A stretch of DNA of 64,000 nucleotides. Source: Propionibacteriaceae bacterium. GTDB taxonomy: Bacteria; Actinomycetota; Actinomycetes; Propionibacteriales; Propionibacteriaceae. The first letter of the stretch is position 1. Every line of letters starts with the position of its first letter. The notes below the pieces were generated by a model, which saw only the letters and a list, made by a program, of their open reading frames with translations, searched no databases and was not told the origin of the DNA. Both the position numbers and the translations under genes were made by a program. The DNA lies in assembly GCA_031267645.1 (NCBI GenBank), contig JAIRYW010000061.1, forward strand, positions 1-64,000. The letters run 5' to 3'. Positions 1-14,779 of the stretch are shown in pieces.

Positions 1-2271
1 CTTGGCTTGGGCCACCGGGTCCAATTTGGCGGCTTGGCAGGCCGCCAAAGCCAGCTCCAGGGCGGGCAGCCCCTGGCCGTAGGTGACCAGATAGGTGGCG
101 GCCAAGCGGCGCGCCTCCAGATAGCCGCGGGCGGTGGCCGGGATCAGGTCGAGGGCGGACAGCACCGAGGCCAGGTCGGTCAGCTGCCCGTCCGGGCTCC
201 GCCGCCGGGCCCGGACCCGGGCCAGGCCGAAGCCGGCCGCCGTCAGATAGCTGGTGTCGGTGGCGGCGCAGACCCCGTACAGACTCTCCGCCAGGTCGGG
301 CTGGCCGCCCACCTCGCAGGCCACGGCCAGGGCGAACTTGGGGGCCAGTTCGCCGGGCACCTGGCCCAAGACGGCGTTGAAATAGGACTGGGCCTGGTTC
401 CACTGCGACTGTTGCAAGAGGCTGACGCCGGCCATCCAGGCCGCCCGCCACTCCCACGGGTCGACGCTCAACATGGCCTCCACCCGCTGGTCCACGAAGG
501 CGGCGTCGCCCAGCTCCAACCCCACCCAGCAGCGGGCCAACTCGACCTCGGGCGAGTTGACCGGCGGTCGGCCCAGGGCGGCCACGCGTTGAGTCGGCGG
601 CAAGGGGGCCAAACTGGCCAGCCAGTCGACGGCCGGATCGGTCGGATCCGGCTTCAGCCGCGGCAGATGCGACCAGTCGAAGCTGTCCGAGGCCACGGTG
701 GGGTGCTCGAACAGCTCGGAGACGGCCGAACTGGTGGCCACCGAGCCCCGCTCGACGCCCACCGCCTCGCGCAGGACGCCCAACAGCTGGACCCGCAATT
801 CGTCGATCGAGCTGAAACGGTCGGACGGACTGGGGGCGCAGGCCCGGGCGATCAAACGGTAGAGGGAGTCGTGCCGGGCCAGGCTGGGCAGCTCCTCGAC
901 CGGCGGCAGAGTGGTCTGGTAGGTGGTCTGATAGCCCTTGACTTCGGCGCAGCAGACCAGCAGGGTACGCCCGATGGTGTAGATGTCGGAGGCCGACGAA
1001 CAGCCCTGGGTGGGGACCTCGGGGGCTTGGAAGCCAGCCGTGCCGAAGATGGGCGAGACGTCGTCGTCGATCCGGCGCACCCCGCCCAAGTCAATCAATT
1101 TGACGGTGTCGTCCAGGTGCATCAGGTTGTCGGGTTTGAAGTCGCAGTAGAGCAGACCGCGCTGGTGCAGGTAATTGAAGGCCGGCAGGACGCCCAGGAT
1201 GAGGGCGATGGCCTGGTCCACCGGCAGGGGGTCGTGCGTGCCGGCGGCCGAACGGCGGTCTTTCAAGATCTGCTTGACCGAACGCCCGTTGACGAACTCC
1301 ATCACGATGTAGGCGGCGTTGCGGTGGGTCACGAAGTTGAAGATCTCGACGATCAAGGGGTGCTGGACCTCGGCCAAGAAACGCTGTTCGGCGATGGCGG
1401 AGGCCTGGGCGTTGGCGTCGCCGACGTTGAGCAGACCCTTCAGCACCACCCAGCGGTTGGAGACGTTACGGTCCTGGGCCAGGTAGATCCAGCCCATGCC
1501 GCCGTAAGCCAGGGGGCCGCGCACCTCGTATTGGCCGGCCACCAACTCGCCCACGGTCAGTTTGGGGGTGAAGGAGTAAGGCTGACGGCACTGGGGGCAG
1601 AAACCCTCCAAGCGGCCCTCCCCGGTCTCGTCCGAGCGGCCCACGGCCGCCCCGCAGCTGGGGCAGACCCGGCGCTCCTCCGGGATGGCCGGGTCGGTCA
1701 AGATGGTCGCCGCCGGGTCGCCGGCCGGTTCCACCGGCACCTCGGTCAAACCGGCCCCGAGATGTCCGGAGCGCAGTCGGGTGGAGGTGGCCGCCCGACT
1801 GACCGAGACCGGGCCGGCGCCGACCCGTAAACGGGCTGAGCCCAAGGCGGTGGTGCCCAAACGGCTGGTCAGGGGAGCGGCTAGGACGGCGCTGGAGGGA
1901 CGGGCCGGCGGCGGTGGCCCGGCCGGGGCGCCGCAGATGGTGCAATAGCCGTCCTCGACCAGACCGGGGCAACCCGGGGCCTGACAGCGGACCGCGGTCG
2001 GCGGCGGTCCGACCGGTCCGGCCGGTGGGGTGGGGCCGGCCGGCCGGTACGGGGTCGGCCCCATCGCCTGACGGCCAGGGCTGAGACGAGGCGACGGCGG
2101 GGCCACCGGGGCCGGCGTCGGGGTCGGGTGGTTGAGCGGGCGGCCCGGTCCAGGGCTTGGGGCGACGGACGGCCCGGCGCCGGAGCCGTCCGAGCCGACT
2201 GGTGGCAGACCGCAGACGTCGCAGTAGCCGTCGATGATGCGACCGGGACAGCCGGGGCGTCCGCAGCTCAT
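1..2271 (-). CDS. pknG: PknG-type serine/threonine protein kinase, C-terminus cut by window edge
   Basis: Cytosolic eukaryotic-type Ser/Thr kinase of the PknG family, which in mycobacteria and corynebacteria phosphorylates the FHA protein GarA/OdhI to set TCA-cycle and glutamate flux. 757 codons are visible and the frame is open at base 1. Two short Cys motifs of the form C-x4-C...DGYC-x2-CG lie near residues 3-24 and 94-122. A rubredoxin-like CPSC...CPQC module follows at about 201-232, then the kinase domain: Gly-rich loop GPLAYGGMGW near 254, Lys in VVLKGLL near 275, catalytic loop YCDFKPDN near 375 and DLGG (in place of DFG) near 394. Helical TPR-like sequence continues to the edge. The ATG overlaps the upstream stop as ATGA, so it is translationally coupled as the last visible gene of the operon. 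The domain order matches PknG; substrate and regulation are inferred. Confidence 0.93.
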   Translation of the reverse strand, partial: MSCGRPGCPGRIIDGYCDVCGLPPVGSDGSGAGPSVAPSPGPGRPLNHPTPTPAPVAPPSPRLSPGRQAMGPTPYRPAGPTPPAGPVGPPPTAVRCQAPGCPGLVEDGYCTICGAPAGPPPPARPSSAVLAAPLTSRLGTTALGSARLRVGAGPVSVSRAATSTRLRSGHLGAGLTEVPVEPAGDPAATILTDPAIPEERRVCPSCGAAVGRSDETGEGRLEGFCPQCRQPYSFTPKLTVGELVAGQYEVRGPLAYGGMGWIYLAQDRNVSNRWVVLKGLLNVGDANAQASAIAEQRFLAEVQHPLIVEIFNFVTHRNAAYIVMEFVNGRSVKQILKDRRSAAGTHDPLPVDQAIALILGVLPAFNYLHQRGLLYCDFKPDNLMHLDDTVKLIDLGGVRRIDDDVSPIFGTAGFQAPEVPTQGCSSASDIYTIGRTLLVCCAEVKGYQTTYQTTLPPVEELPSLARHDSLYRLIARACAPSPSDRFSSIDELRVQLLGVLREAVGVERGSVATSSAVSELFEHPTVASDSFDWSHLPRLKPDPTDPAVDWLASLAPLPPTQRVAALGRPPVNSPEVELARCWVGLELGDAAFVDQRVEAMLSVDPWEWRAAWMAGVSLLQQSQWNQAQSYFNAVLGQVPGELAPKFALAVACEVGGQPDLAESLYGVCAATDTSYLTAAGFGLARVRARRRSPDGQLTDLASVLSALDLIPATARGYLEARRLAATYLVTYGQGLPALELALAACQAAKLDPVAQAK

Positions 2272-3488
2272 GGGTCGGACCTCCGATCAGTCGTCGGGAG
2301 CGGTGGCGTGGGATCGGTCGGATCGCCGCCGGAGCCGTCCGACTGGGCGGCGGTCCGCTCGGCCGCCGGGTCCAGGTCGAGGGCGGCGGCGTAAGCGTCC
2401 AGGATCGGGCGCAACACCGCCATCGGCGTGGGTCGACGCGACAACAACTCTTCGGCCTGGTCGGCCAGACCGGCCGTGGCGGCGTCCGGTCGGCGGGCCC
2501 CCCGTTCCTGGTCGCGCAGCCGGGTCAGCTCGGCGCCGGCCGCCGTCCAGTCGTCCCAAGCCGCCCGATTGGCCCGTTCGACCAAGTCCAGGGCTTGGGC
2601 CACCGTCTCCAGCCGGGTCCGGTAGAGATTCAACTCGGCCTCGTCGGCGGGCGGTTGGCCGAGGGCGGCCAACCGGGGCAGGGCGTATTTCGGGGCTGGT
2701 TGGACCCGCCCTCGGACCCGTTCGACCAGGGCGGCCAGCTCGGTCTCGCGCTGGCCCAGACGCTCCCGCAAGGCCTGGGCCTGGGCCGTCAGCTGGGCCA
2801 ACCGGCGGCGACGGGCGTTGCCCACGATGAGATCGCGTTCGAGTTGGGCGGCCTGGATCTCGATCGGACCCAGACGGCCGCCGATGTCGCCGCCGCGACC
2901 GGCCATGGCCGCCAACTGGTCGATGGATTCGGCCATCTGGTCGACCTGGCGGCGCCAATCGGTCCGGTCGTCGGCCGGCTCCAACTCGACCTGTTGGCGC
3001 AGACGCTCGACCTGGGCCCGCAGACCGGACAGACGCAACGAGGCCTGGCCGTCCAAGGCGGTCAGGCTGAGCTGGGCCGTCAACTGGGCGGTCAAGGCGT
3101 CGGACAGCCGACAGGCCTCGGGCAAGTTGACCGACAGCCCGGCGGCCGGGCCCTGGGCCGAGACGGGCTGAGGCTGGGCGTCGTCCAACCGGCTCCAGAT
3201 CAATTGCGACAGCTGGCTCAGCTGGACCGCTCCGACCCGGCCGGAGTCCCAGCCCCGGAGGAGGTCTTGGTAACGACGTTGGACCGCCTGCCAGACCGAC
3301 AGGGCCACCATCAGGTCGCCGGTCTGGGCCCCCGCCGACGGCCGCTGGGCCAGAGCCCGGTCGAGGCGGTCCAACTCGGCCCGGCGTTGGCCCAGCCATT
3401 CGCCCAACTGGTCGAGGTAGACCAGCATCTGCTGAGGTTGGGCCGGCCGGTCCAGGGCGCCAGGCGGCCAGGGGGCGGTCGGACTCAC
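2268..3488 (-). CDS. coiled-coil protein of the pknG operon
   Basis: Soluble 406-residue protein with no signal peptide or membrane segment. It is rich in Leu, Gln, Arg and Ala with long predicted helices, especially residues 20-60 and 130-330, and has an acidic, Pro-rich tail. I do not recognise a named family. The GTG start at 3488 overlaps the stop of the GlnX-like gene as GTGA, and its own stop overlaps the pknG start as ATGA, so it should be made together with both. In mycobacteria the gene between glnX and pknG is the lipoprotein glnH; this protein occupies that position but has no lipobox or solute-binding features. A scaffold or adaptor between the membrane sensor and kinase is a reasonable guess. 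An in-frame ATG at 3611 would put the start deep inside the upstream gene and is rejected. Confidence 0.8.
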   Translation of the reverse strand: MSPTAPWPPGALDRPAQPQQMLVYLDQLGEWLGQRRAELDRLDRALAQRPSAGAQTGDLMVALSVWQAVQRRYQDLLRGWDSGRVGAVQLSQLSQLIWSRLDDAQPQPVSAQGPAAGLSVNLPEACRLSDALTAQLTAQLSLTALDGQASLRLSGLRAQVERLRQQVELEPADDRTDWRRQVDQMAESIDQLAAMAGRGGDIGGRLGPIEIQAAQLERDLIVGNARRRRLAQLTAQAQALRERLGQRETELAALVERVRGRVQPAPKYALPRLAALGQPPADEAELNLYRTRLETVAQALDLVERANRAAWDDWTAAGAELTRLRDQERGARRPDAATAGLADQAEELLSRRPTPMAVLRPILDAYAAALDLDPAAERTAAQSDGSGGDPTDPTPPLPTTDRRSDP

Positions 3489-4834
3489 CTGTACTCCGTC
3501 AATCGGGTGCGGAAGCCGATCAGAGCCAAGCTGACTCCGACCAGGCCCAAGAGCAGGGTCAGCGAGGCCTGTTCGAGGGCCGATTCCAAACCGCCGTCGG
3601 CCACCTGCCACACCAGCTCGGCTTCGAGCTGGGCACTGGCTTCGACCAGGTCGAGCCAGGGCGAGCTGGCGTTCAGGCCGAAGATCTCAGCCGCCTGAGC
3701 CGGGTCGGTCTGGGGTTCCAAGCGGTCGTGGGCGGCTTGGATCTCGTCCCAGGCCGCCATCAGAGCCGGCCAGGCCGGCTGCAGTCCGACGGCCGAGTCG
3801 GCCAATTCGGCCAGCCAGACCTTGGCCTGGCCCAGCCGGCGGCCGGCCTCGTCGTGTTGGGCCGAGAAAGCCGCGGGCTGGCCGATCGCCCCGCAGTCGG
3901 CCGCCGCCACCGTCCAGGCCGCGGTCTCGACTTGATGGATCAGACGGACGGACTGGACAGCGACGCTGGCCTGGTCCAACTGGTTCCAGACCCGTTGGCT
4001 GGACAGCGACGATTGGAAGGTCAAGGCGATCAGAGCCGCCATGGCTCCGATCAGGCCCAGGTTGATCAGCCGGTGGGTGCGCCGCGACATCACCACCTGG
4101 ATCAAGAGCAAGAGGGCGACGCAGACCCAGCTGGAGACGGCCGCGGCGGTGGTGAAGCCCGGTCTGGCCCCGGCCCCGGCCCGGTCCGACTGCTCGATCA
4201 AGGCGGCCAGCTGGACGTCCAAGGCTGCTCCGGCCACCTGGTGGGCTTGGGCGCCCTGGTCGAGCCCGGCCGCCGGGTCGGTGGCGCGGACCCGTAAGGC
4301 CTGGTCGACCAAGTCCTGGTAGGACATGGCCGTTTGAGACAGAGCCACCAAATCGTCGAAGGCGGCCCAACCGGAGCTCACGGCGCTCAGAATGCCCCGG
4401 TGGACGTCGCCCATGGCGGCGTTGAAGGCGTCGGCCGGGCCGGTTCCGGCCGCCGGGTCGATCAAGGCGACGGCGGCGGCGGCGTCGGCCCGGGCCCAGT
4501 CGGTCTCCAAGGCGCGCAGTCCGACGCCGCGGTGGGAGGCCGTGTTGAAGTCCTGAGCCCGTTCCGGCGGCAGGGTCACGGCCAGCAGACTGAGGATGGT
4601 GGCGACCGCCATGACGGCCAAGCTGATCCAGCGCAGACGGCCCAACAATTTGGGAGTCGGCGCCGCGGTCCGCCTGGGCCGCGGCCGGCCGCTCGGCCCG
4701 ATCAGGCTCTGGCCGCTCCCCCCGGTCGGAGCGGGGCGGCCGGCCGGGACGGGCGGGGTGGCGGTGGCGCTGGCGGGGGAGGGAGCGCCCGGCGGCGGGG
4801 CGGGTCGCCCGGCGGCCGGCCCGGGCCTAGGCAT
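3485..4834 (-). CDS. glnX: GlnX-like four-helix transmembrane sensor protein
   Basis: Membrane protein of 449 residues. After a cytoplasmic Pro/Arg-rich leader (about 1-65) come TM1 (about 68-90), a helical extracytoplasmic domain (about 95-215), a TM2-TM3 hairpin (about 228-275), a second helical extracytoplasmic domain and TM4 (about 425-443). The two outer segments look like four-helix-bundle sensor domains. The layout and the position two genes before pknG match mycobacterial GlnX (Rv0412c), which with the amino-acid-binding lipoprotein GlnH signals to PknG. No GlnH is present here, so the ligand may be sensed directly or through another protein. The ATG at 4834 overlaps the upstream AAA+ gene by 8 nt; a longer open frame reaching 5524 runs antiphase through that gene and is not used. 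Confidence 0.72.
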   Translation of the reverse strand: MPRPGPAAGRPAPPPGAPSPASATATPPVPAGRPAPTGGSGQSLIGPSGRPRPRRTAAPTPKLLGRLRWISLAVMAVATILSLLAVTLPPERAQDFNTASHRGVGLRALETDWARADAAAAVALIDPAAGTGPADAFNAAMGDVHRGILSAVSSGWAAFDDLVALSQTAMSYQDLVDQALRVRATDPAAGLDQGAQAHQVAGAALDVQLAALIEQSDRAGAGARPGFTTAAAVSSWVCVALLLLIQVVMSRRTHRLINLGLIGAMAALIALTFQSSLSSQRVWNQLDQASVAVQSVRLIHQVETAAWTVAAADCGAIGQPAAFSAQHDEAGRRLGQAKVWLAELADSAVGLQPAWPALMAAWDEIQAAHDRLEPQTDPAQAAEIFGLNASSPWLDLVEASAQLEAELVWQVADGGLESALEQASLTLLLGLVGVSLALIGFRTRLTEYR

Positions 4835-6074
4835 CGTCCGCCTCGGCCGGCTTCGTCCCAGCCGGTTCCGTCTCGGTCGGTTCCGTCTCGACCGACTCTG
4901 GTCCGGCCGGCCATTCGACGGGGTCGGTCTCGATCGGCCCGATGACGTCGGCCGGCGTGAGCTGGCGCAGTTGGTCGGTGCTGGGATCGGCCACCTCGCG
5001 CAGGCGCCAGGCCTGACGGCCGATGGCGGCCTCGAAGACGTTACGGGCAAAACGGCCATTGCCGAAGCCGTCGTCGCGGACCTGCTGGGCCAGCACCAGC
5101 CGGAAGGCGTCGATGGAATCAGTCCCGAGGTCGTAATCGTCTCTTTGGGCCATCCCGGTGAAGATGCCGACCAATTCGTCGTCGCTGTAGTCGTCGAACA
5201 CGATGGTGGTACGGAAACGTGAGGCCAGGCCCGGGTTCTCGGCGATGAAACGCTCCATCGGGGCCGGGTAGCCGGCCACGATGACGACCAAGTCCGAGCG
5301 GTGGTCCTCCATCTCCTTGACCAGGGTGTTGATGGCCTCCTCGCCGTATTGGTCGCCGGCCAGGGCATAGGCCTCGTCGATGAAGAGGACGCCGCCCAGG
5401 GCTTGGGCCGCCACCTCGGCCGTTTTGATGGCGGTCTGGCCCAGGTAGCCGGCCACCAGCTCGGAACGGTCGACTTCGACCAACTGGCCCTGGCTGAGCA
5501 AGCCGAGAGCCCGGTAGATCCCACCGACCAGACGGGCCACCGTGGTCTTGCCAGTGCCCGGGTTGCCCACGAAGACCAGGTGTCGGGTCACGGTCGGGTC
5601 TTTCAAACCGGCCTTGGCGCGCAAGCCCTGGACCCGCAGGATGGCGGATTGGCGGTGGATCTCCTGCTTGACCGAGATCAGGCCGACCAACTGGTCCAAT
5701 TCGGCCAGCAGCTCCTCCAGCGTCTTGGGCTCCGGCTCCGGTTCCACCGGCGCCGCGGTCTCGGCGGCGGCGGCTTGGGTCAGGTCGGCCGGGGCCGGGG
5801 AGGTGGCCGAGCCGGTGGCGTCCGGAGGGCCGACCGGCCAGTCGGAGATCGGGCGGCCGGCCTGGTTCAACGGGCCGAAGGCGCCGGGGGCGTGCGGATC
5901 GAGGCCGCTGAGATCGAAATGATCGACTGACGGCAGGTCGGCGGCCGGCAGCCCTAAATCACGCAGGCGTTGGGACTGCTGACGCAGCTGGCCCAGGACG
6001 CGCGACAGGAGCGCTGGCGCCTCCTGCGTGAACTCCTCCATGGCCTGTTCAGGCGTCTTGTCCGGCTCCGTCAC
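4827..6074 (-). CDS. AAA+ ATPase, CbbX/SpoVK/EccA-like
   Basis: Soluble ATPase of 415 residues. The N-terminal 130 residues are poorly conserved, acidic and Pro-rich. A CbbX/SpoVK-type AAA+ domain follows: Walker A GNPGTGKTTVAR, Walker B LFIDEAYAL, and a sensor and arginine-finger region ending in ASRFRTTIVFDDY. This clade includes the rubisco activase CbbX and the N-terminal-TPR ATPases of type VII secretion, but no TPR repeats or ESX genes are visible here. GTG start at 6074, overlapping the upstream stop as GTGA. Its place between telA and the GlnX-like sensor suggests a remodelling enzyme for the membrane or kinase complex of this operon; the substrate is unknown. Confidence 0.85.
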   Translation of the reverse strand: MTEPDKTPEQAMEEFTQEAPALLSRVLGQLRQQSQRLRDLGLPAADLPSVDHFDLSGLDPHAPGAFGPLNQAGRPISDWPVGPPDATGSATSPAPADLTQAAAAETAAPVEPEPEPKTLEELLAELDQLVGLISVKQEIHRQSAILRVQGLRAKAGLKDPTVTRHLVFVGNPGTGKTTVARLVGGIYRALGLLSQGQLVEVDRSELVAGYLGQTAIKTAEVAAQALGGVLFIDEAYALAGDQYGEEAINTLVKEMEDHRSDLVVIVAGYPAPMERFIAENPGLASRFRTTIVFDDYSDDELVGIFTGMAQRDDYDLGTDSIDAFRLVLAQQVRDDGFGNGRFARNVFEAAIGRQAWRLREVADPSTDQLRQLTPADVIGPIETDPVEWPAGPESVETEPTETEPAGTKPAEADDA

Positions 6075-6616
6075 CAGGCCTCCAGATCGAGCGGGTTGTC
6101 CGAGGGCGGGGCGCCCAGTTCGTCCACCTGGGTCGCGACCGGCGCCTCGGGGGCGAATCTCTGACGTAGGAAGCGTCCCTGGGCCACCAGGGCGCGGGCG
6201 TCTTTCTGCAGCACGGCGTCGTACATCCGGTCGACCGCCGCCCCCAGCAGATCGAGCTGATCGATCAAGATCAACAAGCTGGTCTTGCCCTGGGCGATCG
6301 GCCTGGTGTTGGCCCAGTCGCGGGGCAGACGGAGGTACCCGGTCAGCGACTCGGGCAGGTAGCTGGTGGCGGTGGCGACGAGGGCGTACTGGTCGACCGA
6401 GGTCAGGCCGGAGTTGTCCATCCTGGGCACGGTCTGGCGCAAACGGGTCGTGACTCGGCGGACCCGGGCCACCACCGCTGGCGGCAGGCTGGGATCGTCC
6501 ACCGACTGGTCGACCTGGTCGAGGGCGGCGACGATGTCGGCCGGAGTCGGAGCAGGCGGCACCACCGGGGCCTCCGCCGCCTCGTCATCTCCTTTGATCC
6601 AGCCGAACAAAGCCAC
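6071..6616 (-). CDS. conserved-looking protein downstream of telA, unknown function
   Basis: Small soluble protein of 181 residues, starting MALFGW, with a Pro/Ala-rich N-terminal segment followed by helical sequence; no signal peptide or membrane segment. TelA-family genes are often followed by small helical XpaC-like partners, and this gene sits 12 nt after telA, but I cannot recognise an XpaC signature with certainty. GTG start at 6616 with no strong ribosome binding site, consistent with translation re-initiating from telA. Its stop overlaps the AAA+ gene start. Its function is probably tied to TelA. Confidence 0.75.
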   Translation of the reverse strand: MALFGWIKGDDEAAEAPVVPPAPTPADIVAALDQVDQSVDDPSLPPAVVARVRRVTTRLRQTVPRMDNSGLTSVDQYALVATATSYLPESLTGYLRLPRDWANTRPIAQGKTSLLILIDQLDLLGAAVDRMYDAVLQKDARALVAQGRFLRQRFAPEAPVATQVDELGAPPSDNPLDLEAW

Positions 6617-6628
6617 GGGAAAGGACTC

Positions 6629-7870
6629 TCAGCGGATCGAATCGACGTCGAAGTCGGTCGGAATGACGGGCTGAGAGGACTGGGCCCGGTCCAGGTAGGC
6701 GCGCGACTTGACGACCTCTTGCTCCAACACGCCGATGGTCTGAGACATCGACTGCAAGGCCTCGGCCTTGAAGCTGTCGATCGTGTCCATGGTTTGGTAG
6801 ATGTTCTGGAAGGCGGCTTGCAACTGATCCAGACCGAGGGTCGAGCTGGAGGCCTGCTGGCGGATCGCGGCCGAATTCTCCTTCAACATCTCGGAAGTGC
6901 GCTGGATCATCTCCGAGGTGGTCGAGTTGAGGGCGGTGATCTGGTCCAGGACCAGCTTCTGATTGCCCAGGGCGGCGGCCACGATGACCGCCGTGCGCAG
7001 GGCCGAGATGGTCGTGGTGGAGGCCCGGTCGACGCCCTTGATCAGCTCGATGTTGTTCTTGATGATGATGTCGATGGCGAGGTAGCTCTGGATCGAGACG
7101 GCCAGCTGGGTCAACAGGTCCTGGTGCTTCTGGCGGACGTAGAACAAGACGTCCTCGCTCATGACCTTGGCCCGCTCCGGGTCGCTCAAACCGACCTCGG
7201 CCACACGGGCGGCCAGGCGACGGTCGAGTTGTTCGGCGATGTAGACGTATTGATTCAGCCGACCCATGGTCTGCCACAGGTTCTGCTTCTCCATGTTGAG
7301 GGCGACATTGTCGCGGGTCAGCTCGTCTTGGGCCGACCGCAGGGCGTGCAGAATGGCGTTGAGGTGGGTCTGGGAGGACTGGTACTTGCGGAAGTAGTCC
7401 TCTAGCTTGCGCCCGACCGGGAAGATCCCGAGCAGCTTCTTGGTCGGCGAGACGTCATGGCTCGGATCGAGGTCCTCGATGGTGCGACGCAGCTCCATCA
7501 AGGTCTTGCCCACGGTCGAGCCTTCGGCCAGGCCGCCCTCGCGCAGCGACTTGACTGGCATGTTGAGCAGTCGGTTGGAGGTTTCGGCGGCCCGCCGGAT
7601 GTCCACGTCGCCCATGCCCCGGACGGCGTCGGCCTGGGCCGAGAACTCGGGCGAACGGGTCTGAGCCTGGTCGATGGCGGCCATGAAGCCGTCCACCTTC
7701 TGATCTAGGACGGGCACCTGGGCGGCTTCGACCTGGGGAGCCAGAGCCGGAGCCTGAGTGTCGGCGATCGGTTTGACCGGGGCTGGCGCCTCCAAGGTCA
7801 GAGGCGGAGCCGTGATGGGCGGGGCCAGCGGCGCGGCGGCGGCGTCGCCGAGGGACAACGAGTCTGTCAT
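6629..7870 (-). CDS. telA: TelA/toxic anion resistance family protein
   Basis: Protein of 413 residues in the TelA (tellurite/toxic anion resistance) family. Residues 1-75 are Pro/Ala-rich. The rest is a long all-helical domain with the family features: LLGIFPVGRKLEDYFRKYQSS near 170, then regularly spaced helices to a Gln-rich C-terminus. Family members are linked to resistance to tellurite and cell-envelope-active compounds by an unsettled mechanism. The ATG at 7870 is chosen because a good site, AGGAGA, lies just upstream and the conserved sequence starts after it; an in-frame start at 7993 has no such support. First gene of the six-gene operon ending in pknG, divergent from adnA. Confidence 0.9.
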   Translation of the reverse strand: MTDSLSLGDAAAAPLAPPITAPPLTLEAPAPVKPIADTQAPALAPQVEAAQVPVLDQKVDGFMAAIDQAQTRSPEFSAQADAVRGMGDVDIRRAAETSNRLLNMPVKSLREGGLAEGSTVGKTLMELRRTIEDLDPSHDVSPTKKLLGIFPVGRKLEDYFRKYQSSQTHLNAILHALRSAQDELTRDNVALNMEKQNLWQTMGRLNQYVYIAEQLDRRLAARVAEVGLSDPERAKVMSEDVLFYVRQKHQDLLTQLAVSIQSYLAIDIIIKNNIELIKGVDRASTTTISALRTAVIVAAALGNQKLVLDQITALNSTTSEMIQRTSEMLKENSAAIRQQASSSTLGLDQLQAAFQNIYQTMDTIDSFKAEALQSMSQTIGVLEQEVVKSRAYLDRAQSSQPVIPTDFDVDSIR

Positions 7871-8084
7871 GAGGTCTCCTGATCTTTGGACGATCGGCCG
7901 CCCGGGTGGCCGCTGGCCCGGTCGACCTGGGCTCGGTGGGACCAGACAAGGCGGACCTGAGCCTGACCAGCTTCCCACATCTGGCCCGGCCATGCGAGCT
8001 TGACCGAGGGGTCGGACCAGGGCGTGTCAGATGGCTGGGAAGGGGCTGGGACGGACTGTCGGCGCGGTCTGCTTTGATGGCTCC
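7871..8084. promoter_or_regulatory. divergent intergenic region telA / adnA
   Basis: 214 nt holding the promoters of the telA-pknG operon (leftward) and adnAB (rightward). On the plus strand TTTGAT at 8073-8078 lies six nt before the adnA ATG, the spacing of a leaderless -10 element. No LexA box or other dyad is visible, so SOS control of adnAB is not apparent. No convincing leftward promoter was picked out by eye. Confidence 0.4.
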
Positions 8085-11000
8085 ATGTCGATCGAGCCGC
8101 CAGTCTTCCGCCTGGTCAACCGGCCTATCGCAGCGGCGCCTGACTTCCGACCGACCGACCGCCAACGCCAGGTGATGGGCTTCGACGGCGCCCGTCTGTT
8201 GGTCTTGGGCGGCCCTGGCTCCGGCAAGACCGCCGCCCTGGTGGCCACGGCCGCCGCCCAGCTGTCGGCTCGGCCCGATTGGCGGGCCGTCCTGGTGAGT
8301 CCCGACCGCGTCGGGGCCGAGGCCCTGCGCCTGGATCTGGCCCGCCGCGCCCCCGCGGTCTGGGGTCGGGCCCGGGTCACGACCTGGCACGGCCTGGCCT
8401 TCAGTCTGCTGCGGACCGCCGACTCGGCGCGGGCCTGGTTGAGCGCCAGTCAAAGCGACCAGCGCTGGCGCGAACTGATCGACCAAGGCGGGGCCGCAGC
8501 TTGGCCGGCGCAGTTGGCCCAGGCCTGGCCCACCCGTCGTTTCGCTCGGCAGACCCGTCAGGCCGTGGAGCGGTTGCGTCAATTCGGCTGGCGGCCGTCC
8601 GACTTGGCGGCCCGCGCCGACGCAGCCGGGCGGCCCGATTGGCGGGCCTTGGCCGGCCTGTGGTCCGATCAGGCCGACGTCAAGGCCTTGCACGGCGACC
8701 TCGACGCCTCCGATCTGATGGCCGGGGCGCTAGCGGCGGTCCAATCCAACGCTGGGTCGAACGGTCTTGGGCTGGACGCCGAATTGGTCTTGGTCGACCA
8801 CTTCGAGGAGGCCGAGCCGGGTCAGATCAGGCTGTTGGAGGCCCTGGCCGGCGCGGTCGCCCGTTTGATCGTCTTCGCCGACCCGTGTCAGACGGTGGGC
8901 GGGTTCCGGGGGGCGCGGCCGGCGGCGGTCTTCGACTGGGTCGGCTCGACCGCTCCGGCGGCGGCCGCGGTCGTCGAATTACGGCGGCAGCATCGTCTGG
9001 CTCCCCGCCTCGAACTGGTCGAGCGGCGGTTGCGAGCCGGTCTGGCCCGGCCCCGGCCTGGGCCGGATCGAGCCGGCCGGTCGCTCTCCGGCGACCAGAG
9101 GGAGGACCCGGTCGATCCGGGTGAATCGGTGGTTCCGGTCGATCCGGTCGGCCGGAAAGCGGCCCGGGGCCCCGCCGACCCAGCGGGTCGGAGCGACTGG
9201 TTCGCCGGGGCCCCCCCGGCCGCCGGTTCCTTCGAAGTGGCGGTCTGTCCCAGTTCGCGGGCGGAGGCCGAGCTGATCGCGGGCCGGCTCAGCCAGTGGC
9301 GCTGGGAGCGGGGTTGGGACTGGTCCGATATGGCTGTCTTGGTGCGTTCGGGCGGGCCGATCCCCGCTCTGTGGTCGGCTTTGACGGCGGCTGGCCTGCC
9401 GGTTCGGATGGCCTGGGACGAGATCCCACTGGCCGGTCAGCCGGCCGTCGTCACCCTTTTGACGGCCCTCCGACTGTGTCTGGAGGACGATCCGACCGCG
9501 GCGCCGGGTTGGATCGGTTTGGCGGCCTCGCCCCTGGCCGGCCTCGAAGCGGCCGACCGGGCGGTCTGGGCGGCTGGGGCGACCGCCGGAAGCGGGCCGG
9601 CGGTGGGCCTGAGCCCGGCGGCCGAAGGCGGCCTGGCCCAGCTGGAGGACCGCCTGAGGCGGGCCCGGCGGCGGGTCGAGCAGGGCTCGGGGCCGGCCGG
9701 GCCCCTGTGGGAGCTGTGGCAGGGTTCGGCCTGGGCCGCGGCCCTGGCCGACGACCTGGGCCGCGGTCCGGCCCAGGCTCGAGCCGCCGACCGGCAGCTG
9801 GACCTGATCTGCGCCCTGTTCGATCTGGCCCACGGCCTGAGCCACAGCGGCGGTCCGGCCGGGGTGGCCGCCCTGATCGACCAGGTCGCGCGCCAGGAGA
9901 TCCCCCACCGCAGCGGCCGTTCCGAGGTCGGCCGGGAGGGTCTGGCGGTGCTGACCGCCCATCGGGCCAAAGGCCGACAGTGGCGGGCCGTGGTGGTGGC
10001 GGGGGTCTGCGAGGGCGTCTGGCCGAGCCTGCGTTCGGCCCGGGAACTGATCGATCTGACCGACCTGTCGCCCGACGGCCGTTTCGCTCCGCTCGGCCCG
10101 ACGGAACAGCTGGCGGCCGAGCGGCGCCTGTTCTACGTCGCCTGCACCCGGGCCAGCCACGCTCTGCTGGTCACCGCCGTGGATCAGAACCAGGACCAGG
10201 GCCTGCGGCCCTCCCGTCTGATCGACCAGCTGGGCGGACCGACCGCCCCGGCCGAGCCGGCTGAGGCGGCCTGGTCCGGCTTGAATCAGCTGGTGGGCGG
10301 GTTGCGCCGGGCCTGCCTCGACCCAACCGCCCATCCCAGCCTGCGGCAGGCCGCCGCCGCCCGCTTGGCCGATCTGGCCGGTCGGCGCGACCCGGTCAGC
10401 GGCCGGCCCCTGGTCCGCCTGGCCGATCCGGCGCGGTGGTGGCCGGTCGGCCAGGACTGCCCGGACGGCGACGACGACGGTCGAGCCGGCCGGGCCGAGC
10501 CGGCCGTCCGACCGGGTTTCGAGCGGCCGTCGCCGGCCGCTTGGAGTCCGGAACGGGGCGGCGCCGACTGGGCCGGTCCGCTCCGGGGAGCGGGGCGATC
10601 CGCCCTGGACCAGTCGTCCGAGTCGGGGCGGCCATCCCCGGCGGAGGGCGGGGACGGCCCTTGGCGTTTGACCGGATCGCATCTGCGGGCCCTGTTGACC
10701 TGTCCGAGGCAGTGGTTCTTGGATCGCCGAGTCAAAGCGGCCGGTCCGCCCGGGCCGGCCGCCGCCGTCGGCGCCTTGGTCCATCAGCTGGTCCATGACT
10801 TGGGCCGTGGCCTGATCGACCGTTCTCAAGCTGACCAGCGCTTGGAGCGGGACTGGCCCCAGATCGACTTTCCGGCCCGCTGGCGGGCAGAGGCCGAACG
10901 TCAGGCGGCCGGCCAGGCCCTGGACCGCTTCGAGAATTGGCGGGACGGCCAAGGCGACTGGCGTCTGATCGGGCTCGAGGTCCCCTTTGAGCTCAATCTG

Positions 11001-11519
11001 ACCGTGGGCTCGCAGCTGTTCCAATTGGTCGGTCGGATCGACCGGATCGACCAAGACGCGGCCGGGCGGATCCGAGTGGTCGACTTCAAAACCGCCCGCC
11101 AGGCGATCACGGCCGCCCAGGCCGCCGCCGACGACCAACTCGGGATCTACCAACTGGCTGTCCGCGGCGGCGCCCTGGCCGATTCGACGGGCCCGAATCC
11201 GAGTTTGGCGGCCGCCGAGCTGGTTTATCTACGCTGCCCGGCCGGGCCTGGAGGGGCCTGGCCGACCCTCCGTCGGCAACCCAGCCTGGACCAGTCGCCC
11301 CAGCGCCAGCAGAGCCAACCGGTCCAAGGTCTGAGCCCGGCCGGAGCGACCCGAGTTGGTCCGGCGCGGACTTGGCCGAGTTGGGTCCACCACCGTCTGG
11401 CCTGGGCCGGTCGGCTGATGGCCGAGGGGCGCTTCCCGGCTCTGCCACAGGCCGGCTGCGCCTGGTGCCACTTCAAAGCCAGCTGTCCGGCCGGCCCATC
11501 CCAGGTGGAGGACGCGTGA
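8085..11519 (+). CDS. adnA: AdnA-type helicase-nuclease subunit
   Basis: Subunit of the AdnAB heterodimeric helicase-nuclease that resects double-strand breaks in actinobacteria. 1144 residues: a UvrD-like N-terminal motor with Walker A GGPGSGKTAAL, but motif II reads VDHFEEAEP instead of DEAQD, a degenerate form expected for the AdnA motor. The C-terminus is a PD-(D/E)XK nuclease: a first Fe-S Cys in CPRQWFLDRR, catalytic GRIDRID...VVDFKTA, and three further Cys in CAWCHFKASC. Two long Pro/Arg/Gly-rich linkers (about 330-380 and 790-860) separate the domains. The ATG at 8085 fits a leaderless promoter; a start at 8031 is possible but less likely. The stop overlaps adnB as GTGA. Confidence 0.92.
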   Translation: MSIEPPVFRLVNRPIAAAPDFRPTDRQRQVMGFDGARLLVLGGPGSGKTAALVATAAAQLSARPDWRAVLVSPDRVGAEALRLDLARRAPAVWGRARVTTWHGLAFSLLRTADSARAWLSASQSDQRWRELIDQGGAAAWPAQLAQAWPTRRFARQTRQAVERLRQFGWRPSDLAARADAAGRPDWRALAGLWSDQADVKALHGDLDASDLMAGALAAVQSNAGSNGLGLDAELVLVDHFEEAEPGQIRLLEALAGAVARLIVFADPCQTVGGFRGARPAAVFDWVGSTAPAAAAVVELRRQHRLAPRLELVERRLRAGLARPRPGPDRAGRSLSGDQREDPVDPGESVVPVDPVGRKAARGPADPAGRSDWFAGAPPAAGSFEVAVCPSSRAEAELIAGRLSQWRWERGWDWSDMAVLVRSGGPIPALWSALTAAGLPVRMAWDEIPLAGQPAVVTLLTALRLCLEDDPTAAPGWIGLAASPLAGLEAADRAVWAAGATAGSGPAVGLSPAAEGGLAQLEDRLRRARRRVEQGSGPAGPLWELWQGSAWAAALADDLGRGPAQARAADRQLDLICALFDLAHGLSHSGGPAGVAALIDQVARQEIPHRSGRSEVGREGLAVLTAHRAKGRQWRAVVVAGVCEGVWPSLRSARELIDLTDLSPDGRFAPLGPTEQLAAERRLFYVACTRASHALLVTAVDQNQDQGLRPSRLIDQLGGPTAPAEPAEAAWSGLNQLVGGLRRACLDPTAHPSLRQAAAARLADLAGRRDPVSGRPLVRLADPARWWPVGQDCPDGDDDGRAGRAEPAVRPGFERPSPAAWSPERGGADWAGPLRGAGRSALDQSSESGRPSPAEGGDGPWRLTGSHLRALLTCPRQWFLDRRVKAAGPPGPAAAVGALVHQLVHDLGRGLIDRSQADQRLERDWPQIDFPARWRAEAERQAAGQALDRFENWRDGQGDWRLIGLEVPFELNLTVGSQLFQLVGRIDRIDQDAAGRIRVVDFKTARQAITAAQAAADDQLGIYQLAVRGGALADSTGPNPSLAAAELVYLRCPAGPGGAWPTLRRQPSLDQSPQRQQSQPVQGLSPAGATRVGPARTWPSWVHHRLAWAGRLMAEGRFPALPQAGCAWCHFKASCPAGPSQVEDA

Positions 11520-14500
11520 GCCCCGCCCGCCCGATCCGCTTGAGCGACCCCGAGCAATTGGCCGGGCTGCTCGACATCGCCTTCTCCGACGAGCAGCTGG
11601 CCGCCATCGCCACCGGCTTGGAACCGGTCCTGATCGAAGCCGGGGCTGGCTCCGGCAAGACGGCCGTGATGGCGGCCCGGGTGGTCTGGTTGGTGGCCAG
11701 CGGCCAGATCGAACCGGACCAGGCGCTGGGTCTGACCTTCACCCGCAAAGCTGCCCGGGAGCTGGCCGACCGGGTCGGCGCGGCTTTGGAACGGGCCGGC
11801 TGGACCGATCGGGAGCAGGACCGGGGCGAGCCGGTCGTCTCCACCTACGACGCCTTCGCCGCCGCTTTGACACGTGACTACGGAGCCTGGCTGGGCCAGG
11901 AGCGGCCCGGTCGGCCGCTCGACCAGGGCCGACGCCATCGGCTGGCGGGTCAGACGGTGGTCGAATGGGACCGGTCCTTGGCCGCTCTGAGCCGCTTCAG
12001 CCCAGCCGCCCTGACGACCCGGCTCCTGGCCCTGGACTCGGCCATGACCACCCATCTGGTGGACGAGGCCGACCTGCGCCGGTTCTGCGCCGCCGAGCAG
12101 GCGCTTTGGGAGGCCGCTCCAGCCGGTCCCAGGGGACCGACGGCGGCCGTCGTCGAAACTCTCCGGACGGTGGCCGAACGGCTCGAATTGCTCGACCTGA
12201 GACAGGATTACCGACACCGCAAACAGGTGGCCGGTCTAGCCGAGTTCGCCGACCAGATGGCCCAGGCCATCGCCTTGGCGCGGGCCGAGCCCGAGGTCGG
12301 GCGCGACCTGCGTCGCCGTTTCGCCGTCGTCCTGGTGGACGAGTACCAAGACACTTCGAACGCTCAGGCGGCTCTCTTGCGCGATCTCTTCGGAGCCGGT
12401 CTGGATCCGGCCGGGGCCGGCTTCCCGGTCACGGCGGTGGGGGACCCGCGGCAGGCCATCTACGGCTGGCGGGGGGCCTCGGCCGCCAACTTGGCCGCTT
12501 TCTGTGGCGATTTCACCAACCGCGCCGGCGCTCGGGCCCGCCGTCTCAGCCTGTCCGTCAACCGCCGCAGCGACCAGGCGATCGTGACGGCCGCCAACCG
12601 GGTGGCACAGGCCTTGGCCGACGGCGACTCGCCCCCGGCGGCCGAGCCGTTGCGCTGCCTGCCGACGGCCGGGCCGGGCCGGATCGAGACGGCCGGTTTC
12701 GAGACCTGGCCCCAGGAGTTGGATTGGGTGGCCGATCGGGTGGCCAGCGCCCTGGACCGAGGCGAGGCCGCGGCCTGGGCCCGGATCGCGGTCCTGGCCC
12801 GGGGCAACGCCGAGCTACGGGAACTTTGGGCCGCCCTCGACCGGCGTGACGTGCCGGTCGAGTTGGTCGGCTTGGGCGGATTGCTCGATCTGCCCGAGGT
12901 GGCCCATCTGGTGGCCCATCTGCGCCTGATCGACCAACCTTGGTCCAATCCCGACCTGGTGACGGTCCTGACCGGGCCGCAGTGGCGCTTCGACCGGGCG
13001 GACCTGGCCCGGCTGGGCCGCCGGGCCCAACGGTTGGCCGAGACGTCGGACCGACCGGACCCGGCCGCGTCCGGTTCAGACGGCCAGTCGGTCAGTTTGA
13101 TCGGCGCCCTGGCCGACCCTGGACCGGATCTCAGCCCGCGGACCCAGGCCCGCCTCAAGGACTGTCGGCGTCAACTCAGCCGATTGGCCAGCCACCGGCT
13201 CGACCCGGTGGTCGATCTGGTCGAGCTGATCGTGGCCCTGACCGGATTGGAGGCCGAGACAGCCAGTCTGCCGGAGGCGGTCGGCCGGGTCCGGCGCGAC
13301 CATTTGAACGCTTTCCGCGACGCCGTGGCCGATTTCGGGGCCGGCGATCCAGCCGGGGGCTTGGCCGGTTTGGTGGCCTGGCTGGAGGCCGAACGAGAGT
13401 TCGGCGTCGGCCTGGAGCGGGCCGAGGCCAGCCCGGCCGACTCGGTCAAATTGATCACGGCGCACCGGGCCAAAGGCCTGGAGTGGGATGTCGTCTACCT
13501 GCCCGCCTTGGTCGGGGGCGTCTTCCCCAACAGCCGTGTGACCGACAATCCACTGCGCAACCCGGCCGCGCTGCCGCACCAATTACGGGGCGATCGGGCC
13601 GCCTTGCCGCAGCTGGAGGGGGCCGACGCCAAAGGGATCGAACGGTTCGGCCAGGCCATGCGCCGCCAAGCCCTGCTGGCCGAACATCGTCTGGCCTACG
13701 TCGCCATCACCCGCGCCCGCCACCACCTGGTCGCCAGCGCCCACCACTGGGCGGCCGGCCTGGCCCGCCCCCGGGCCCGCTCGGTCTACTTCGACCTGCT
13801 GCGCGAATCAGGCGTCGGCCCCGACTCGGGCGACCTGCCGGAGCTGGCCGAGGGGGCCGTCAACCCGATCGACTGGGCCCAGCCCGGTTGGGACTGGCCC
13901 CCAGCCGAGGATCCGGAAGCCCGGGAGAACTCGCTCCAAGCCCGTCGGGAGGTGACTCGGTTGCGGCGCGACCCGGTCGGACGAGGCCAGGTCGAGCGCG
14001 AACTGGCCCTGGCCCCGGCCGAGGTCCGTCGTCAGGTCCAAGTCTGGGACCAGGCCATCGCCCAAGTCCTGGGCCGAGCCGAGGCCCGGCCCGGGCGGGC
14101 CGTGGCGGTGCCGCTGCCGGCCAGCCTGAGCGCCCACCAAGTGCTGTTGGCCCGCCAAGACCCGGCCGCCTTCGCCGCCGCCCTGGCCCGTCCCTGGCCG
14201 GCTCGGGAGGACCCGGCCCGCCGGGTCGGGCAGAGCTTCCACGACTGGGTCCAGGACCGTTTGGACCGCCCCTCCCTGCTTGACTGGTCCGACCCGGTCG
14301 AGCAGGGGGAGCCGACCGGCCGGACGGCCGGGGATCCGGGCCTGGAGCTGCGCCGCCGCTTCGCCAACGGCCGCTTCGCCCAAGTCCAACCCTGCGCCGT
14401 CGAACACAGTTTCACCCTGGTCTTGGGCGGGCGCCTGGTGCGGGGCCGGATCGACGCCGTCTACGCGCGGGCCGACCTGCCCGAGCCGCCCCCGCTGGCC

Positions 14501-14779
14501 GACTTCCTGGTGCTGGATTGGAAGACCGGCCACAGCCGGCCCGACCCGCTCCAGCTGGCTTGGTACCGCTTGGCTTGGGCCGAGCGGGTCGGGATCGCGG
14601 TCGAGCGCGTGGCGGCCGGCTTCTACCACGTCCGATCGGACCGGCTCGACCTAGTGGCGGACCTGCCTGGCCGAGCCGAGTTGACCGCCTTGCTGGAGGC
14701 GCTGGGAGATCGGCCCGAGTCGGATCGGCGCGCCGCTGGGGCGGGACGGGCCCCGTCCGGTCGGCCCGCTCCGGAGTAG
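11516..14779 (+). CDS. adnB: AdnB-type helicase-nuclease subunit
   Basis: The second AdnAB subunit, with 1087 residues and a complete SF1 motor: Walker A EAGAGSGKTAVM, DEYQD (motif II), GDPRQAIYGWRGAS (motif III), TAHRAKGLEWD (motif V) and the Arg-containing motif VI. In contrast to AdnA, all ATPase motifs are canonical, so this should be the driving translocase. A RecB-family nuclease lies at the C-terminus, with GRIDAVY and LVLDWKTGHS supplying the acidic residues and Lys. GTG start at 11516, in a 4-nt overlap with adnA; an upstream in-frame start at 11372 lies inside adnA and is not used. AdnA-AdnB-NudC order is as in mycobacteria (Rv3202c, Rv3201c, Rv3199c). Confidence 0.94.
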   Translation: MSPARPIRLSDPEQLAGLLDIAFSDEQLAAIATGLEPVLIEAGAGSGKTAVMAARVVWLVASGQIEPDQALGLTFTRKAARELADRVGAALERAGWTDREQDRGEPVVSTYDAFAAALTRDYGAWLGQERPGRPLDQGRRHRLAGQTVVEWDRSLAALSRFSPAALTTRLLALDSAMTTHLVDEADLRRFCAAEQALWEAAPAGPRGPTAAVVETLRTVAERLELLDLRQDYRHRKQVAGLAEFADQMAQAIALARAEPEVGRDLRRRFAVVLVDEYQDTSNAQAALLRDLFGAGLDPAGAGFPVTAVGDPRQAIYGWRGASAANLAAFCGDFTNRAGARARRLSLSVNRRSDQAIVTAANRVAQALADGDSPPAAEPLRCLPTAGPGRIETAGFETWPQELDWVADRVASALDRGEAAAWARIAVLARGNAELRELWAALDRRDVPVELVGLGGLLDLPEVAHLVAHLRLIDQPWSNPDLVTVLTGPQWRFDRADLARLGRRAQRLAETSDRPDPAASGSDGQSVSLIGALADPGPDLSPRTQARLKDCRRQLSRLASHRLDPVVDLVELIVALTGLEAETASLPEAVGRVRRDHLNAFRDAVADFGAGDPAGGLAGLVAWLEAEREFGVGLERAEASPADSVKLITAHRAKGLEWDVVYLPALVGGVFPNSRVTDNPLRNPAALPHQLRGDRAALPQLEGADAKGIERFGQAMRRQALLAEHRLAYVAITRARHHLVASAHHWAAGLARPRARSVYFDLLRESGVGPDSGDLPELAEGAVNPIDWAQPGWDWPPAEDPEARENSLQARREVTRLRRDPVGRGQVERELALAPAEVRRQVQVWDQAIAQVLGRAEARPGRAVAVPLPASLSAHQVLLARQDPAAFAAALARPWPAREDPARRVGQSFHDWVQDRLDRPSLLDWSDPVEQGEPTGRTAGDPGLELRRRFANGRFAQVQPCAVEHSFTLVLGGRLVRGRIDAVYARADLPEPPPLADFLVLDWKTGHSRPDPLQLAWYRLAWAERVGIAVERVAAGFYHVRSDRLDLVADLPGRAELTALLEALGDRPESDRRAAGAGRAPSGRPAPE

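Follow-up and report, generated by a model that had tools for sequence, protein, structure and literature searches.

In mycobacteria and corynebacteria, the lipoprotein GlnH, the membrane protein GlnX and the kinase PknG form a system leading from amino-acid sensing to GarA/OdhI. Papers on this system describe a three-gene operon only, which they call conserved (PMC6069109, PMC8546545); the contacts between GlnH and GlnX and between GlnX and PknG are undemonstrated, and the GlnX ectodomain might itself bind ligands (PMC9769921). As for TelA-family proteins, sub-membrane structures have been proposed for TelA in Ter systems (PMC7824862), and TelA of Listeria contributes to nisin and tellurite tolerance (PMC12791056). 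We describe here a locus that has both PknG and TelA. It lies in a stretch of 64,000 nucleotides (hereafter the window), corresponding to the first 64 kb of contig JAIRYW010000061.1 (107 kb, our G000:C32) from a Propionibacteriaceae genome (GCA_031267645.1) of 2.85 Mb that is 98.6% complete. Six genes, all on the minus strand and running leftward from 7870 to 1, encode in this order a TelA-family protein, a small protein, an AAA+ ATPase, a GlnX-like membrane protein, a coiled-coil protein and PknG (Table 1). GlnH, which defines the described sensory system as a lipoprotein encoded with GlnX and PknG, is absent from the operon. We read the operon as one intracellular, membrane-anchored PknG module equipped with an ATP-driven remodeller, for which GlnH and amino-acid sensing are a detachable input, and we put the probability of this reading at about 0.6.

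A preliminary description, made from the sequence alone, had already listed these six genes and their overlaps and remarked on the missing GlnH, and the coordinates of the open reading frames (ORFs) bear it out. TelA and the small-protein gene do not overlap, being separated by a 12-nt gap; the following junctions are GTGA (small protein/AAA+), 8 nt (AAA+/GlnX), GTGA (GlnX/coiled coil) and ATGA (coiled coil/PknG). The near-fixed stoichiometry that had been deduced from these overlaps is not supported; they suggest translational coupling instead. As base 1 of the window is also base 1 of the contig, PknG is cut there and the region downstream of it is not visible.

In order to compare gene neighbourhoods, relatives were searched for PknG and the surrounding genes were then scanned with profiles. 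The order TelA-small protein-AAA+-GlnX-coiled coil-PknG is found again at genus, family and order level, in both Propionibacteriales and Micrococcales; it is thus not confined to this genome. A scan of named genomes for the small protein gave 299 relatives, and among the best 80 of these 299 loci, 69 carry the small protein, the AAA+ ATPase and the coiled-coil protein together and in the same order, with contig ends interrupting the operon in most of the others. The families concerned are Propionibacteriaceae, Nocardioidaceae, Intrasporangiaceae/Dermatophilaceae, Cellulomonadaceae (Oerskovia) and Microbacteriaceae (Rathayibacter), and the genera include Nocardioides, Microlunatus, Oerskovia, Terrabacter, Mobilicoccus and Rathayibacter. 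At the level of gene order, this comparison establishes the six genes as a conserved unit over at least two actinobacterial orders, in agreement with the unit proposed at the outset, which a gene order limited to this genome would have contradicted. The open-access papers searched gave us no description of the TelA-to-PknG unit or of a GlnH-less GlnX, and nothing relevant on PknG together with TelA, although an account elsewhere is possible; a PknG unit with TelA, AAA+ and coiled coil, and GlnX without GlnH, therefore appear undescribed, as the preliminary description had supposed for the unit.

The history of GlnH can be read from the same loci. In most relatives its gene lies between those of GlnX and the coiled-coil protein, and GlnX-GlnH adjacency also occurs in Mycobacteriaceae, Streptomyces and other families; absence is therefore the derived state, and the comparison of loci shows an ancestral operon of seven genes from which GlnH was lost in the lineage of the window. 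The coiled-coil protein had been thought to sit in the place of GlnH, but the two genes stand side by side in 42 of the 69 named loci, and we rejected the coiled coil as a GlnH substitute. On a tree built from concatenated TelA, AAA+ and PknG (68 rows), the absence of GlnH amounts to three changes: one in a 23-row Propionibacteriaceae clade including the window, one in three Mobilicoccus species (isolates) and one in a single metagenome-assembled genome (MAG; locus L154). We set L154 aside as a firm third loss because its MAG holds, beside the GlnH-less long operon, a second, three-gene glnX-glnH-pknG locus (L210, G606:C58:4000-20000), which could be a genuine paralogue or else come from mixed binning.

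The operon GlnH is absent from the window genome as well as from the congeners whose region is assembled. A move of GlnH elsewhere in the window genome was rejected, since a genome-wide search gave no GlnH-level match: the single SBP_bac_3 gene lies within a transporter operon (substrate-binding protein, permease and ATPase), and its product reaches ~105 bits against the GlnH model versus 280-446 for most operon GlnH proteins. Full-length GlnH-like matches were obtained in three other GlnH-less genomes, all inside ATP-binding cassette (ABC) transporter operons. We thus did not find in the window genome the glnH homologue that the preliminary description had named as a result that would speak against it.

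GlnX itself has changed in the GlnH-less lineages. The window protein aligns over the full NF058618 profile (E=6.6e-10) but scores 38.7 bits, where the curated cut-off is 250, hence “GlnX-like”; hydropathy and region-wise alignment nevertheless give it the expected architecture of four transmembrane helices, two ectodomains, and a conserved cytoplasmic loop and tail. The loop motif RRTHRxxN and the C-terminal tail TEYR are conserved, while both ectodomains are present but diverged. Mean pairwise identities, given as within the GlnH-less genus/among GlnH-bearing Propionibacteriales, are level or nearly so for TelA (74.8/74.3%), the small protein (63.0/62.2%) and AAA+ (67.8/66.4%), and slightly lower in the GlnH-less genus for PknG (61.0/65.2%) and the coiled coil (48.8/54.8%). 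For GlnX they drop (24.9/41.6%), and the drop is confined to the ectodomains (25/52% for ectodomain 1, 20/37% for ectodomain 2), as the cytoplasmic loop (66/60%) and the tail (54/53%) hold.

Some relatives have gone further. Ectodomain 2 is deleted in 8 of 27 GlnH-less loci versus 0 of 41 GlnH-bearing ones (Fisher p 3e-4, uncorrected for relatedness), the span from the loop to the C-terminus being then about 63-69 residues versus 171-204, and parsimony places four such deletions on the 68-row tree. In L129 and L138, ectodomain 1 is deleted too; what remains is a GlnX of about 200 amino acids (aa) with four predicted transmembrane helices that keeps R-[TS]-H-R and a C-terminal EYR or EYS. GlnX had been described as kept, which missed this change in the protein itself. 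Judged from these alignments, decay and deletion after the loss of GlnH affect the outer part of GlnX alone, while its loop, its tail and the other operon genes persist.

One has to keep in mind that such a pattern could also be left by GlnX merely decaying after GlnH loss in an operon that persists by linkage and has no present signalling role; low GlnX identity and the GlnX deletions would fit, but the transmembrane helices, loop and tail are kept in an intact reading frame, the conservation of loop and tail is suggestive of purifying selection, and TelA, AAA+ and PknG show no clear constraint loss, and we consider this very improbable.

The first three genes bring the putative remodeller. 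TelA has a proline-rich N-terminus (PLAPP...LTLEAP) and the C-terminal motif FDVD. None of 62 homologues of the small protein has a consistent Pfam match; AlphaFold2 predicts an all-helical core at residues 25-154 (predicted local distance difference test, pLDDT, 81). The third protein consists of AAA and AAA_lid_6 domains preceded by an N-terminal region without recognised domain. Its nearest solved structures are CbbX (3syk, 196 bits) and EccA1 (9lur, 191 bits), and it stays below the curated cut-offs for CbbX (214.5/459 bits), EccA (239.3/467) and SpoVK (261.1/423). The window protein carries GNPGTGKT, LFIDEAY and YLGQT; Walker A, Walker B and a candidate arginine finger are present in 73 of 73 relatives, which supports the ATP-driven remodeller of the initial proposal; 71 of 73 also have YxGQT, the pore loop of the CbbX type.

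TelA and the small protein show no recognisable relationship; both terminate in L-[DN]-[LIV], preceded by variable linkers, in different genera. With the wider pattern [LMF][DNTAS][LIV], the motif ends 74 of 84 TelA and 61 of 84 small proteins versus 8 and 6 in shuffles, which take no account of relatedness; it is found in 0 of 76 AAA+ and 1 of 72 coiled-coil proteins. The small proteins of Kribbella, Terrabacter and Mobilicoccus have L-x-P-P at this end; the N-terminus of TelA contains this motif as well.

The coiled-coil protein aligns in 21 rows with 44 invariant columns, and its AlphaFold2 model is helical (pLDDT 91). We looked for solved folds resembling this protein and the small protein and retained none: Foldseek gave no match at E < 0.3, and VIA-align gave matches only within the common helical background. 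The spectrin-type scaffold EzrA (4uxv), for example, aligns with the coiled coil at Z 11.1 (root-mean-square deviation 13.7, 334 residues aligned), a score to be read against a helical background reaching ~13. In Streptomyces, glnH and pknG flank the gene of a highly conserved protein of 445 aa (L056:10009-11343 and others), with weaker versions in other families. It matches the coiled coil weakly and over the C-terminal 66 columns only (hhalign probability 42%, E 3e-4), and may be a distant homologue.

PknG shows the domain order rubredoxin, Ser/Thr kinase and TPR, with all three models over their cut-offs although its C-terminus is cut. Two zinc-ribbon-like motifs (C-x4-C-x6-GYC-x2-CG) precede the rubredoxin domain, and most relatives examined have one or two copies. 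An apparent rubredoxin decay in GlnH-less lineages was rejected as a pattern-search artefact, the four cysteines being present in the sequences inspected. As for the classical output, an OdhI/GarA-like FHA gene (L097, G000:C32:90362-90847), followed by a MerR-like gene, lies outside the window. Its product has an N-terminal zinc ribbon and the motif EVTSVMP, at the site where GarA has ETTSVFR. Congeners vary at this site; in many of them another stretch, DDQTLTNEL, is conserved, and L113 keeps it while its first motif is gone; we drew no conclusion on a loss of the phosphosite, as the motif varies across the genus and the order. One congener (G006) has two OdhI-like genes (C1:53971-54438 and C2:932-1402).

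A search for OdhA (PF16870), the classical downstream target of PknG, gave no match in 10 of 18 congeners, and of these 10 genomes seven are at least 92% complete. In two genomes, G003 and G011, OdhI was not found either, FHA matches being at paralogue level only (~52 bits), and both keep PknG and the operon; G011 is also the genome of L150, discussed below. PknG might then have substrates beyond OdhI, since the module persists in genomes that gave no match for OdhA and, twice, none for OdhI. MAG incompleteness is unlikely to account for all these cases.

The biochemical mechanism that we infer for the module is the following. The cytoplasmic loop and tail of GlnX would hold PknG via its TPR domain, the coiled-coil protein being the likely bridge between the two. 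TelA and the small protein would assemble beneath the membrane, as has been suggested for TelA of Ter systems, and their unstructured L-[DN]-[LIV] tails would be gripped by the CbbX-type AAA+ ring. CbbX pulls on tails of Rubisco; by analogy, the ATPase would pull these tails with ATP and dismantle or reset the assembly, an action of AAA+ on TelA and the small protein that we advance tentatively. The state of the assembly would in turn set the access of PknG to its substrates. In GlnH-less lineages, the membrane or the cytoplasm may provide the input, as may a new ligand to which the diverged GlnX binds without a partner. In this presumed termite-gut lineage, the outside sensor was lost while the intracellular machine stayed, and this suggests an independent function of the machine. 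In its most complete form, with PknG as the output of an ATP-driven, membrane-anchored assembly, an intracellular or membrane state as primary input, GlnH as an add-on and substrates beyond OdhI, the proposal is conceivable but somewhat doubtful.

Several facts weigh against the module as we read it, in addition to the limits of the Fisher test and of the shuffles given above. Two loci are genuine departures from the conserved order. One MAG locus (L150, JAITVZ010000132.1) has TelA, the small protein, GlnX, the coiled coil and PknG without AAA+ in the operon, and in the isolate Nostocoides japonicum T1-X7 (L200), TelA and the small protein stand alone, as AAA+, GlnX, coiled coil and PknG were not found in the next 9 kb. 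Firm GlnH losses number two only (the Propionibacteriaceae clade and Mobilicoccus), phylogenetically independent pairs three, too few for a test, and many GlnH-less genomes are MAGs, whose incompleteness could explain some of the missing OdhA and OdhI. The window genome itself retains the OdhI/GarA orthologue and OdhA, and quick ectodomain change is also compatible with adaptation to a new ligand.

In another explanation, the diverged GlnX is still a receptor, either for a new ligand bound directly or with the help of a substrate-binding protein whose gene lies elsewhere, and 2-oxoglutarate flux remains under the control of the pathway via OdhI. The window GlnX does have both ectodomains, in a genome with OdhI and OdhA, and the GlnX ectodomain has been suggested as a possible ligand binder (PMC9769921); however, relatives delete one or both ectodomains, the only SBP_bac_3 of the window genome belongs to an ABC transporter, and several congeners are without OdhA, so that we regard this explanation as unlikely. 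Less likely again is an independent envelope-stress cassette of TelA, small protein and AAA+, linked to the PknG genes by nothing more than a common promoter. Such a cassette would suit the role of Listeria TelA in nisin and tellurite tolerance (PMC12791056), the isolated TelA-small protein pair of L200, and the Mycobacterium and Streptomyces loci examined, where GlnX-GlnH-PknG occurs without it, but it is at odds with a nearly unbroken association in fixed order over two orders and with the overlapping reading frames in the window.

If the operon is indeed one PknG module, the three-gene picture drawn in mycobacteria and corynebacteria covers only a portion of the module that other actinobacteria have, and PknG functions extend beyond 2-oxoglutarate dehydrogenase. 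For signalling from GlnX to PknG, GlnX variants without one or both ectodomains are natural deletions: the loop and tail that they retain indicate which part has to contact PknG. Candidate missing links are a motor and three proteins that have not been studied so far.

Table 1. Genes of the TelA-to-PknG operon in the window
Product	Coordinates	Strand	Family evidence
TelA-family protein, 413 aa, first gene of the operon	6629..7870	-	PF05816, 306 bits (cut-off 30)
Small helical protein, 181 aa, tail NPLDLEAW	6071..6616	-	no Pfam/NCBIfam family
CbbX/SpoVK/EccA-type AAA+ ATPase, 415 aa	4827..6074	-	AAA + AAA_lid_6
GlnX-like membrane protein, 449 aa, four predicted transmembrane helices	3485..4834	-	NF058618, below cut-off
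Conserved soluble coiled-coil protein, 406 aa	2268..3488	-	no Pfam/NCBIfam family
PknG kinase, 757 residues visible, cut by contig end	1..2271	-	PF16919, PF00069, PF16918

The closest named relative is the Propionibacteriaceae MAG Gx481_bin45 (L127), with protein identities of 88-90%. The isolate names of several congeners are presumably sample codes associated with termite-gut MAG surveys. A survey of higher-termite guts gave 589 MAGs (PMC7024585). On the other side of TelA, beginning about 160 nt from it in the opposite direction, two long overlapping ORFs on the plus strand (window 8031-14779) look, by eye only, like UvrD/RecB-type helicases, with the P-loops GGPGSGKTAAL and EAGAGSGKTAVM.

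Compared with the described systems, the locus shares with the mycobacterial and corynebacterial one a GlnX-like protein, a PknG with rubredoxin, kinase and TPR domains, and, in the same genome, an OdhI/GarA-like FHA gene and OdhA; it differs by the absence of GlnH and by GlnX ectodomains that are diverged, and deleted in relatives, whereas the mycobacterial and Nocardia loci examined have GlnX-GlnH-PknG without TelA, small protein, AAA+ and coiled coil. Streptomyces, with its order GlnX-GlnH-(445-aa protein)-PknG, likewise fills the slot before PknG with a protein showing a weak C-terminal match to the coiled coil, but keeps GlnH, and TelA, the small protein and AAA+ were not found in the stretch examined. 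The window ATPase resembles CbbX, EccA and SpoVK in its AAA core, AAA_lid_6, Walker motifs and Y-x-G-Q-T pore loop; unlike them, it falls below all three cut-offs and adjoins TelA and PknG genes rather than Rubisco, ESX or sporulation genes. Finally, TelA followed by the gene of a small partner recalls the TelA/YaaN-XpaC pair and Ter systems, except that 62 homologues of the partner gave no consistent match to a Pfam family, XpaC included, and that the pair is here coupled to an AAA+ ATPase and a PknG module.

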